A stretch of 64,000 nucleotides of DNA from Pediococcus ethanolidurans (GTDB taxonomy: Bacteria; Bacillota; Bacilli; Lactobacillales; Lactobacillaceae). Numbering within the stretch: position 1 is the stretch's first letter; each line of letters begins with the position of its first letter. Shown piece by piece: positions 43,546-47,540 of the stretch. Location: positions 1 through 64,000 of the forward strand of contig NZ_JQBY01000003.1 in assembly GCF_001437405.1 (NCBI RefSeq). Direction: 5' to 3'. The notes under the pieces are model-generated. The model saw nothing but the letters and a program-made list of their open reading frames with translations, was not told where the DNA came from and did no database searches. A program made the position numbers and the translations under genes.

Positions 43546-44733
43546 TTAACTAAGTCGCTGTAATTTTTTAGGCTCTTTTAGGAATAGATGGCCAAGTAAA
43601 GCACCAATTAAGAATATGGCAGCTACACTGCATACACCGACCCATCCGAAGCGACTCCATGCAAAGGTTGCAAAGAAAGTGCCTAGAGAACCGCCTAAAA
43701 AGTAACTGAACATAAAAACAGAATTATTACGACTGCTTGCTTTTAAACTTAATGATTGGACAATTGCCTGATTGGAAACTTGACCAAATTGTGTACCCAA
43801 ATCTAGTAAAATAATCCCAACAATTAAACCAATAAATAAGTGACCGATACTTGCAAAAATGATAAAGGCAAGAGTTGAGAATAGAATTCCCAAACCAATT
43901 GTCATGCGGGGCGAGTAGGTGTCCACCATGCGACCAATGATCGAGGCAAACAAGACACCGGTAATACCCAACAATCCCAATAGACCAGCAACATCACTTC
44001 CTAAATGATATTGACTAGCTAAATAAAATGCTAGTGTTGACCAAAGTACATTTGAAACACCAAATAAACAAAAACCATTAATTGCAGCACCCTGTAAATG
44101 TTTTTCTTTTGCGAGCAAATTGGGTAATGAAGCCAGGATTTTTCCATAATGCATATTTTGATGTTGGCGAGGATCACGTGGCAAGTAAAGGTGAAGAACA
44201 CCTAATAAAATAGTGCAAGCAATTGCTGCAATCAAATAAACGTATTGCCAGCTAAGGATACTGCCTAATAATCCACTAACTGAACGTGATAATAGAATTC
44301 CTGTTAATAAACCGCTGAGGACGTTACCTAAAACTTTCCCCTGATGCAAGCTGGGAGCTAAGAAAGCTGCATAAGGAATAATGATCTGAGGTGCAACAGA
44401 AGTAATGCCGACTAACAAAGAAGCAAGGCCAAAAATGATGATTGAGGGCGACAAAAAAGCGCTCAGCAATGCCAAAATTGAAAGAATAAGCATGATCTGA
44501 ATAAGATGATAACGATTAAAAATATCTCCCAGTGGGACAATAAATAATAACCCAAACGCGTAGCCTAGTTGAGTTAACATTGCGACAACACCAACGGCTG
44601 CTTTAGAAACTTGAAAGGTAGTTGCAATTAATCCCTCAATCGGTTGAATGTAATTTAAATTTGCAACGATGATTCCTGTTGCGATTGCCATTAATAAAAC
44701 TGTTTTTCCGGATAGTTCTCTTTCTGACTTCAA
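43546..44733 (-). CDS. MFS transporter (DHA1 type) with leader-peptide region
   Basis: A 395-residue 12-TM exporter. ANLNYIQPIEGLIATTF start, FIVPLGDIFNRYHLI motif A and SRSVSGLLGSILSWQYVYLIAAI motif C resemble YfcJ/AraJ-like exporters; the substrate is unknown. The start is TTG at 44733 with AAGAAGGG 6 nt upstream. That ribosome binding site is predicted to be sequestered by the end of a 19-codon leader ORF (44779-44838), see findings. The gene is convergent with nox. Confidence 0.82.
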   Translation of the reverse strand: MKSERELSGKTVLLMAIATGIIVANLNYIQPIEGLIATTFQVSKAAVGVVAMLTQLGYAFGLLFIVPLGDIFNRYHLIQIMLILSILALLSAFLSPSIIIFGLASLLVGITSVAPQIIIPYAAFLAPSLHQGKVLGNVLSGLLTGILLSRSVSGLLGSILSWQYVYLIAAIACTILLGVLHLYLPRDPRQHQNMHYGKILASLPNLLAKEKHLQGAAINGFCLFGVSNVLWSTLAFYLASQYHLGSDVAGLLGLLGITGVLFASIIGRMVDTYSPRMTIGLGILFSTLAFIIFASIGHLFIGLIVGIILLDLGTQFGQVSNQAIVQSLSLKASSRNNSVFMFSYFLGGSLGTFFATFAWSRFGWVGVCSVAAIFLIGALLGHLFLKEPKKLQRLS

Positions 44734-44740
44734 ACATAAC

Positions 44741-44790
44741 CCTTCTTCGTATTAAGATTTTAATTAAACAAATAAGTATTACGAAAAAGG
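44741..44790 (-). promoter_or_regulatory. Ribosome-binding-site-sequestering stem of the MFS gene
   Basis: On the minus-strand transcript CCTTTTTCGTA (44790-44780, end of the leader ORF) pairs for 11 bp (one G-U) with TACGAAGAAGG (44751-44741), which contains the MFS ribosome binding site. A 28-nt loop separates them. Confidence 0.6.
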
Positions 44791-44838
44791 ATTTTCAGTT
44801 CGCATAATTAGCCAGTGAAACAAGTGGTTATTTAACAT
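44779..44838 (-). CDS. Short leader peptide upstream of the MFS exporter
   Basis: A 19-residue ORF (MLNNHLFHWLIMRTENPFS) with ATG at 44838 and a full GGAGG 7 nt upstream, a better site than that of the MFS gene. The stop codon lies in the stem that hides the MFS ribosome binding site. Size, strong initiation and position are those of translational-attenuation leader peptides, as in erm and cat genes. It is too short for standard gene calls. A function as a stable protein is unlikely. Confidence 0.6.
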   Translation of the reverse strand: MLNNHLFHWLIMRTENPFS

Positions 44839-44870
44839 ACGACGACCTCCATAATCAACTAAGTGTAAAC

Positions 44871-44898
44871 AAAAAAGCTATTTTCGTAAAGGATAGCT
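44871..44898 (-). promoter_or_regulatory. Terminator-like hairpin in the MFS leader
   Basis: On the minus strand AGCTAT / ATAGCT (44898-44893, 44881-44876) encloses an 11-nt loop, followed by six T (44876-44871). Its loop and arm carry TTACGAAAA (44889-44881), perfectly complementary over 9 nt to TTTTCGTAA at the end of the leader ORF (44787-44779). It could compete with ribosome-binding-site sequestration. Confidence 0.5.
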
Positions 44899-44927
44899 AA
44901 TTATTGGAGAAGGTTATAGGTGTGCAT

Positions 44928-45336
44928 CTAAAGGCTGAAACTACCAAAATGTTCATGGAAACAAAATTGGATTAAAATGTCGTCTTCCAGCAAATTTGGG
45001 CTGGAACGTAGTGGGCACGACTTGGAGCCGCAAATCACGTCTCTAAGCTCGGCCTTTATCTAAGCGAATTTCGCTAAGATAAATGTCACTACTGAGCCCA
45101 TTTGCTTACAGACTAAGTCTAATCTTTGTAATCAACACATCAATATAAAACAACTTTGATATCAGTGTTGCTGAGCATTATTTAACATCAAACATTTTTA
45201 GTGCAGAGGCAATTGGTCTCACGTGTCCACCCCGTTCCAGACAAGGTGAGCCATAGGACGGTAATTTGACTACTTTTCATGAACTAAAACTTTTAACGAC
45301 AGTTACTGGAATTGTTTTGGTAGTTTCAACCTTTAG
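44928..45336. mobile_element. MITE-like element, copy C (composite long form)
   Basis: Terminal inverted repeats CTAAAGGCTGAAACTACCAA (from 44928) and TTGGTAGTTTCAACCTTTAG (to 45336) differ at one base. Flanks GTGTGCAT (44920-44927) and GTGTGCGT (45337-45344) form an 8-bp target duplication with one mismatch. The left half (about 44941-45118) carries the same core hairpin as copy A; the right half (about 45205-45330) matches copy B. No ORF. It sits directly upstream of the MFS leader. Confidence 0.85.
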
Positions 45337-45372
45337 GTGTGCGTACCAAATAATTCTTTATATTTGTAAAAA

Positions 45373-45388
45373 TGTTTCACGTGAAAAG
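45373..45388. other. parS-like site 3
   Basis: TGTTTCACGTGAAAAG matches the ParB/Spo0J consensus at 14 of 16 positions, between repeat copy C and gdpP. Confidence 0.7.
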
Positions 45389-45512
45389 AATTATTGTTGC
45401 GTTTTTTAGATGTCAAAAATGAATTGGTTTTATTTTGTTACCAGTTAGTCACGGTTCTTTGTCTCCCGTCTTTGTGATAAAATAAACCTAGTACACAATT
45501 CGAGGAGAAACT

Positions 45513-47540
45513 ATGAAAAAATTACGTTTAGCAGAAAGGATCCCAGTATTTATGCGGAATCCCCGCTTGCGTTTGTTAGCAATTTACATTATCTTGTTAT
45601 CACTCGTTGGCGCGGGAGTTGCGTTTTATTATAACTGGGTATTGGGAGTCGTATTATTAATACTTCTCATTTTGGGGAGTATTTTTATTAGTGACACTTT
45701 TCATCGGGTCAATGAAGAAACCACCAAATATATTTCTGACCTTTCGTTTCGGATTAAACGTAGTGAACAGGATTCACTTTTGCGCATGCCACTAGGAATT
45801 TTGATTTATAGTGATGAAGACCAGGTTCAGTGGATTAATCCGTATATGCAAGGCTATTTGAGTGATAAGGATGTCCTTGGCAAAAAATTAGCTGATGTCG
45901 ACAAAGATTTAGCCAAAATGTTGAACGATCATCGCGATGAAAAAGGTACAGTGACGGTGAACTGGGGTGATCGTCGCTTTACATTACTCATTGAACAAGA
46001 CAGTCATGTTTTGTACATGATGGATATTACTAAATACGCAAAAATTGAAGAAGCCTATGATAATTCTCAAGTAGTAATTGGTCAGGTTTTCTTGGACAAT
46101 TATGATGAAGTCACCCAATCTATGGCAGACTCTGATGTTTCAAGTTTGAGTAGCTTTGTGACGAATCAGATTTCAAGCTGGGCACAAGAATTTGGGATGT
46201 ACTTAAAACGAGTCGATGACGATCACTTTTTTGTTTTAATGTATGCAGAAGTCTTGAAAAAAGTTGAGGCTGATAATTTCAAGTTACTAGATACTATTCG
46301 AGAAGCAACATCAAAACAAAACTTTCCAATTACTTTGAGTATCGGGATTGCTTATGGCGATCAAGATTTGAATAACTTGGCTGACTTATCGCAAAGTAAT
46401 TTGGATTTGGCATTAGGACGTGGCGGTGATCAGGTTGTGGTAAAATCACCAGATGATCAAGCACGTTTTTATGGTGGTAAGACAAATCCAATGGAAAAAC
46501 GAACACGAGTTAGAGCCCGGATGATTAGCCAGGCGGTTACCGAATTAATGTCACAGGCCGATCAAATTTTTGTGATGGGTCACCAACAATCAGACATGGA
46601 TTCATTAGGTGCCTGTTTGGGAATTCGGCGGATTGCACAAATGAACAATCGGCAATGTTGGATTGTATTAGATCAGGAGAATTTACATTCTGATGTTCGG
46701 CGATTATTAACCTCGTTAGAAGACTATCCAGCCATTAAAGAGTCGATTATTACTCCTGAGGCGGCCTTAGAGAATGCCAACAGTCAAAGCTTGCTTATTA
46801 TGGTTGACCATTCTAAACCATCGCTAACAACGGCTCCTGAGCTTTATAAGAAGCTTGAAAATCGAGTAATGATTATTGATCATCACCGTCGAGGCACGGA
46901 ATTTCCAGAAAATCCAGTTTTGGTTTATATTGAACCATATGCTTCTTCCACTTGTGAGCTCATTACCGAAATGTTTGAGTATCAATCTAAGGATAGTGAA
47001 CCAATTAATGAGATTGAAGCTACCGGGATGTTAGCAGGAATTGAAATCGATACGAAGTCTTTCACCACTAAAACGGGAACTCGAACCTTTGATGCAGCAA
47101 GTTATCTACGTTCAGTTGGTGCTGACGAAAATCTAATTCGGCATTTCATGAAAGAAAACGTGGACAGTTACTTACAACGTAACCATTTAATTGAGTCTGT
47201 TGAATTTGTTAATAAAAACTTAGCCGTTTGTGTTGGTGAAGATGATCGCGATTATGATCCAGTTACGGCCGCCCAAGCTGCTGATTCGCTGTTATCAATA
47301 TCAGGAATTGAGGCATCATTTGTTATTACGCGTAGATCAAAGAAGCAAGTTGGAATTTCGGCGCGTAGTGCAGGGGATGTTAACGTTCAGCTCATTATGG
47401 AACAAATGGGTGGTGGCGGTCATTTAGGTAGTGCTGCAACTCAGATTGAAGGTCAGAGTGTTTCTGAAGTTAAAGCGACCTTAACCGATATTTTAAAGAA
47501 GAAAAATGATACAGAAAATAAAGATGATGAAGAGGAGTGA
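45513..47540 (+). CDS. gdpP: Cyclic-di-AMP phosphodiesterase GdpP (YybT)
   Basis: Membrane-bound enzyme hydrolysing c-di-AMP, controlling cell-wall and potassium homeostasis. It has 675 residues: two membrane segments (about 15-60), a PAS domain (about 85-165), a degenerate GGDEF domain (about 175-310), and DHH/DHHA1 domains with [36 protein letters not shown] and the GGGHLGSAA motif. All DHH metal ligands are visible. It ends 5 bp before rplI, an arrangement common in Firmicutes. Confidence 0.97.

Follow-up and report, generated by a model that had tools for sequence, protein, structure and literature searches.

The DNA analyzed here is a 64,000-nucleotide stretch of the Pediococcus ethanolidurans genome (hereafter the window). 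On its minus strand, a gene for an exporter of the major facilitator superfamily (MFS) is preceded by a short open reading frame (ORF) with a ribosome binding site of its own, as expected of a gene controlled by a leader-peptide attenuator (Table 1). The initial annotation had described a 19-codon leader ORF with a full GGAGG 7 nt before its ATG, and inspection of the sequence confirmed both features. It had also paired the end of the leader, CCTTTTTCGTA (44790-44780), with TACGAAGAAGG (44751-44741) around the exporter's ribosome binding site. The two segments are complementary over the 11 bp claimed, as read from the sequence, and folding extends them to 14 pairs (44793-44780 with 44751-44738) that bury the binding site.

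Table 1. Features of the leader-exporter locus in the window
Feature	Position	Strand	Evidence
Leader ORF, 19 codons + stop, MLNNHLFHWLIMRTENPFS	44838 (ATG) to 44779 (stop)	-	Profile match E 1.2e-12; pN/pS 0.09 in five Pediococcus species
Leader ribosome binding site GGAGG	44846..44850	-	Sequence; 7 nt before ATG
MFS exporter, 395 residues, TTG start at 44733	43546..44733	-	Pfam MFS_1 E 1.2e-32
Hairpin 5' arm, inside the leader's end	44780..44793	-	Folding; co-variation
Hairpin 3' arm, contains exporter ribosome binding site GAAGAAGG (44748-44741)	44738..44751	-	Folding; co-variation
Putative -35 element TTTACG	44885..44890	-	TTTACG-17 nt-TA...T in 5/5 Pediococcus species
Putative -10 element TACACT	44862..44867	-	TAAACT in parvulus, damnosus, G011; TAGAAT in cellicola

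The exporter scored below the cut-off of the NCBIfam models for aromatic-acid, Bcr/CflA and other efflux transporters, and a sequence search against solved structures found no relative. Among known RNA families, only a tRNA reached its gathering score in the window, and the one match near the leader was at chance level (E 0.85). In the region 44734-45513, the leader-exporter unit stands head-to-head with a divergent gene, presumably gdpP; four other Pediococcus species share this arrangement, the distance to the leader core being ~140 to 300 nt. The space separating the leader from the gdpP-like gene contains a dispersed, MITE-like element (44928-45336, minus strand). Its 22-nt ends are inverted repeats (21 of 22 positions identical), it is flanked by a possible target-site repeat, GCACAC, and it has 75 matching pieces in the genome. 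Most of the long copies checked carry ~78 extra middle bases that are missing from this copy.

To assess how widely the leader occurs, we searched upstream of relatives of the exporter. In named genomes, 26 such loci were found, and a short upstream ORF with the same core, HWLI-x-R-x-E-x-(P/A)-F, is present at nine. The leader was found in Pediococcus parvulus, Pediococcus damnosus and Pediococcus cellicola, in Loigolactobacillus iwatensis, Loigolactobacillus jiayinensis and Loigolactobacillus binensis, in Lapidilactobacillus concavus and Lacticaseibacillus pantheris, and in one Lactobacillus metagenome-assembled genome. A motif search upstream of the other 17 exporter loci found no leader. 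A profile built from 11 leaders, with no member from genera g34 or g52, matched 24 of 397 genomes of the family at E<1e-6, and 13 of these belong to genera outside the profile (11 in g34 and two in g52). A second profile, of 24 leaders, matched 35 of the 397 genomes in six genera at E<1e-7; it includes sequences from many of the genomes that it later matched. Three genomes with weak matches only (G052, G374 and G400; E 4e-4 to 0.008) were left out of the counts. For all 35 strong matches, the exporter gene lies 3' of the leader on the same strand, with a gap of up to ~350 nt.

Beyond the family, a search of 365 genomes from the order, some of them family members, gave no credible match. Four of the 365 had a match at E<=0.001, and three of these are of the same family, including the window's own genome. 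The match at L128 (E 9.7e-5) was discarded: it covers only part of the profile, and the surrounding DNA reads in another frame as what we take to be an ssb gene. A search of plasmids returned one distant relative (52%). Five strings of the leader core had no match in the open-access literature, and no such system turned up among the papers listed on leader peptides in lactobacilli, both searches leaving most subscription papers uncovered. The main text of a tool paper on conserved upstream ORFs (PMC10219788) contains neither 'Lactobac' nor 'MFS'. Judged by its sequence, the leader thus appears to be a new peptide family serving a known kind of switch, absent from the literature searched.

The leader is conserved as a peptide. 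In five Pediococcus species, pN/pS over leader codons 1-18 is 0.09 (pS 0.524, pN 0.046), and over the leader core in 13 g52 genomes it is 0.12 (pS 0.787, pN 0.095). The in-frame codons just downstream of the leader give 0.89 in Pediococcus and 0.86 in g52. These two genera have the leader at every exporter locus (5 of 5 in Pediococcus, 13 of 13 in g52), so that no motif filter was involved. Across 37 loci, the Arg is written with six codons, and the His, Glu and Phe with two each; as these loci were gathered by a pattern requiring W, R, E and F, the invariance of those residues and the ratio of 0.20 obtained from these loci are partly built in. Selection acts on the leader peptide, and its codons vary freely.

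Conservation stops at the Phe of the core. The stop codon follows directly in all 13 g52 genomes, a single Ser precedes it in the window, and elsewhere up to ~20 further codons are read. Amino acids, not codons, are thus held up to a fixed point, which is the pattern of an arrest peptide. The simplest reading would be that the ribosome arrests when Phe occupies the peptidyl site, regardless of the next codon. Strong selection on the peptide could also mean that the ORF encodes a functional small protein and that the hairpin is a separate matter. However, at E<1e-7 the ORF occurs only upstream of this exporter, in 35 of 35 cases, and the hairpin arms overlap its end and co-vary, and we regard a small protein as quite improbable.

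We assessed the hairpin by pairing each 5' arm with its own 3' arm and with every other. Of the 37 loci, 32 entered this comparison, five with spacers over 80 nt being left out. For whole arms, the pairing energy was -13.78 kcal/mol with the own partner, -8.86 with swapped partners and -6.98 with shuffled ones. When the Pro-Phe codons and the core of the binding site were removed from the arms, the values were -7.32, -4.10 and -4.32 kcal/mol. The sum for own arms was reached by none of 20,000 permutations, either across all loci or within groups, although the species are related and such counts are not probabilities. Five loci (L011, L015, L053, L056 and L060) pair weakly with themselves, their own partner ranking 23-30 of 32. 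By itself, the stability of the predicted 156-nt transcript (44855-44700) does not stand out from that of shuffled sequences, 50 of 200 of which fold equally well (z -0.71). Since both the leader and the pairing of the arms are conserved in relatives, they exceed chance.

The exporter's binding site is thus sequestered by a hairpin that overlaps the leader, and in 31 of the 32 short-spacer loci at least half of the site is paired. The site is unpaired to a mean of 0.45 at leaderless loci vs 0.22 at leader loci, in a comparison for which 14 of 37 leaderless loci could be placed (L033 and L122 are probably one genome); at several leaderless loci it is as hidden as at leader loci. Together with the linkage to the exporter at 35 of 35 strong matches and the low pN/pS of the peptide, the co-variation of the arms across 32 loci gives good support to the central claim of the initial annotation, a leader-peptide attenuator that hides the exporter's binding site.

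We then modelled the effect of a ribosome at successive codons of the leader, counted back from the Phe (F). Averaged over the 32 loci, the predicted openness of the exporter's binding site is 0.18-0.19 until F-7, 0.29 at F-6, 0.50 at F-5 and 0.58 at Phe. For the window, the values are 0.00 until F-7, 0.09 to 0.37 across F-6 to F-2, and 0.54 at Phe. With a ribosome on Phe, the modelled site is more open than with none in all 32 short-spacer loci, and when the 5' arm is masked, the exporter start region of the window becomes nearly unstructured. The modelled stall frees the site only partly, as the mean of 0.58 indicates. Five g34 loci (L052, L055, L057, L058 and L062) have spacers of 174-328 nt between leader and exporter and show no clear opening in the model, and L062 shows the reverse; the script that picked the exporter starts may have erred at long-spacer loci. 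By eye, repeated and strongly folding DNA appears to have been inserted between the arms at these five loci, in one or two copies.

Two other explanations were considered here. An amino-acid starvation attenuator, with the ribosome waiting at the His-Trp or Arg codons, would draw on residues that are indeed nearly invariant, the His-Trp pair and the Arg. However, a ribosome modelled at the Trp (F-9) keeps the site closed (mean 0.18), the leader has no run of codons for one amino acid, and Glu and Phe are equally fixed; we give this explanation very little credence. Constitutive translational coupling would dispense with stall and ligand altogether, translation of the leader melting the hairpin and feeding ribosomes to the exporter. 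The 5' arm does overlap the end of the leader, so any passing ribosome opens the hairpin briefly. Yet coupling requires translation and not a particular peptide, and here the amino acids are held while the codons are free, which makes coupling alone rather unlikely.

The initial annotation had gone further and likened the locus to erm and cat resistance genes, with a third segment, TTACGAAAA (44889-44881), releasing the leader end. The match of this segment to the leader end is exact over 9 nt, as claimed, a length attained by just 6 of 2000 shuffles. In the other four Pediococcus species, the best match is 5-7 nt (reached by 40 to 860 of 2000 shuffles), so that the complementarity of an upstream segment to the 5' arm, on which an ermC-type switch depends, is not conserved across the five species. 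The segment also overlaps the TTTACG of a promoter-like element. All five Pediococcus species have TTTACG, 17 nt and then TACACT, TAAACT or TAGAAT at the corresponding position; the alignment over this stretch includes four of the five. A generic consensus promoter scan did not report TTTACG/TACACT, which has 8 of 12 consensus bases where the limit is 9, and the promoter therefore rests on its conservation. From these elements, transcription would start near 44855, downstream of the third segment. Because the third segment overlaps the conserved promoter-like -35 element, it is probably not transcribed.

A fold of 44920-44700, in which the initial annotation expected two alternative states, leaves the hairpin closed. 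This longer stretch does fold better than its shuffles (z -2.33; 1 of 200), which is relevant only if transcription starts upstream. An erm-like three-segment switch could appeal to that stability and to the exact match. Nevertheless, with a -35-like element over the segment in all five species, matches of 5-7 nt in four of them and an unchanged hairpin in the longer fold, we consider it highly improbable and rejected the segment as a competing strand. The terminator-like hairpin with six T (AGCTAT...ATAGCT, upstream of the leader) did not hold up either, as it was not picked up by the terminator scan and the other four Pediococcus species lack it. The same scan found no intrinsic terminator between leader and exporter in the window, and the 'terminator' was dropped. 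Of the erm/cat-like layout, the sequestered site stands and the third segment does not, which leaves a simpler switch with a single hairpin; the alignment of relatives likewise shows a conserved leader and co-varying arms, and no conserved third segment.

The exporter is more widespread than its leader. Orthologues (E<=1e-100) occur in 82 of the 397 family genomes, and the leader is present in 34 of these and absent from 48, so the exporter can evidently do without it. By genus, the leader accompanies the exporter in 5 of 5 genomes of g1, 4 of 5 of g47, 10 of 11 of g34, 13 of 13 of g52, 1 of 2 of g3 and 1 of 3 of g14, and in none of 43 exporter genomes of the remaining genera. In a tree of 63 of 69 exporter proteins (three short and three identical ones dropped), leaders occur on either side of the deepest split, and their presence or absence requires 7 changes. 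One leader genome, G310, has a broken or incomplete exporter gene (a 233-residue ORF).

Some leaderless loci indicate what may replace the leader. Nine genomes of genus g4 have the exporter, and in all six that were read upstream (L113-L117 and L123; by eye) the leaderless exporter follows the end of a PadR-like gene, one of which was confirmed by Pfam (PadR, E 3.9e-12). This suggests a switch from leader control to repressor control of the exporter in g4. Phenolic acids or drugs are frequent signals of PadR-type regulators, a hint that the exporter's substrate may be a toxic small molecule. At L091 (G254), DNA like the pre-leader DNA of its close relatives L052 and L058 joins the exporter's ATGATG directly, via GAGAATTGAGG (by eye; the automatic alignment placed this region poorly). 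Leader and hairpin appear to have been deleted there, so that the leader's ribosome binding site would now immediately precede the exporter. In Loigolactobacillus zhaoyuanensis (L012 and L083), there is no leader and the exporter has kept its own binding site.

Taken together, we consider it probable that the leader is a translational attenuator of the MFS exporter, working through a single hairpin and a ligand-triggered stall. Our confidence is slightly lowered because of the five long-spacer loci and of a promoter that the consensus scan missed. The transcript would begin shortly before the leader's ribosome binding site. When no signal is present, the leader would be translated to its end and the transcript would refold, the leader end pairing with the exporter's binding site; with the hairpin closed, synthesis of the exporter would stay low. 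With the signal, a ribosome would stall while its exit tunnel contains HWLI-x-R-x-E-x-(P/A)-F, the Phe most likely occupying the peptidyl site, and would cover the 5' arm and so free the binding site. The exporter is thus probably switched on, as the model predicts, when a ribosome stalls on the leader. We infer that such stalling takes place, that a ligand is needed for it, and that this small-molecule ligand is related to the pump's cargo.

Several known systems resemble the proposed attenuator in part. In ermC, stalling of a ribosome on the leader unmasks a Shine-Dalgarno sequence (PMC6685928, PMC5418344). The proposed stall-driven release of a hidden ribosome binding site would be similar, whereas here no upstream alternative segment is supported and the downstream gene is an exporter rather than a methylase. 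For mef(E)/mel of streptococci, a leader peptide is needed for induction of the efflux gene, and mef(E) combines a transcription terminator with an 8-residue leader, MTASMRLR (PMC4335068); in contrast, the scan detected no terminator between this leader and its exporter. The critical residues of TnaC include Trp12, Asp16, Ile19 and Pro24 (PMC8429421). As in TnaC and SpeFL, the fixed residues are spread along the tunnel, with W, R, E and F at -9, -5, -3 and 0 provided that Phe occupies the peptidyl site, and in g52 the stop directly after Phe recalls arrest at termination. The resemblance to these two is one of design, no sequence kinship having been shown. TnaC acts on Rho-dependent termination, whereas here the start of translation, and not transcription, appears to be controlled.

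The closest parallels are cmlA and fexA, exporters of chloramphenicol and florfenicol, which are listed as translation attenuators of export genes (PMC5418344). They share with this locus a leader ORF and a hairpin over the exporter's ribosome binding site; what sets this locus apart is a peptide core conserved across six genera within one family. The leader sequences of cmlA and fexA also differ from this one. Likeness of layout and of gene kind makes it a real possibility, if short of a probable one, that the ligand of the attenuator is a ribosome-targeting antibiotic that stalls the leader and is exported by the pump, and the pump does resemble drug-efflux models, below their cut-off. However, the fixed residues reach back to -10 from the presumed stall site, farther than in the motifs of the mef and erm kind, which are short. 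In addition, the leader is chromosomal, of long standing and linked to a single pump; the search of plasmids gave one distant relative.

A ligand that is not an antibiotic fits the conservation of the peptide as well as a ribosome-targeting drug does. We tentatively propose, as a possibility only, a new family of ligand-sensing arrest peptides, found only in Lactobacillaceae among the genomes searched, in which the nascent core and the tunnel together would bind a molecule other than a classical antibiotic (for instance, an exported metabolite or a plant compound) and arrest would occur on Phe before any codon, sense or stop.

To our knowledge, sensing of small molecules via the ribosome has been described for few leader peptides. 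This leader is short and open to cell-free testing, its peptide is conserved in six genera of bacteria from food and the gut, and it is tied to one pump. The compact core would lend itself to structural work on sensing by nascent chains, and identifying the ligand would probably also show what the pump exports. Finally, the relatives that lack the leader, or whose pump is preceded by a PadR-like gene, offer natural comparisons of changing control over one pump.
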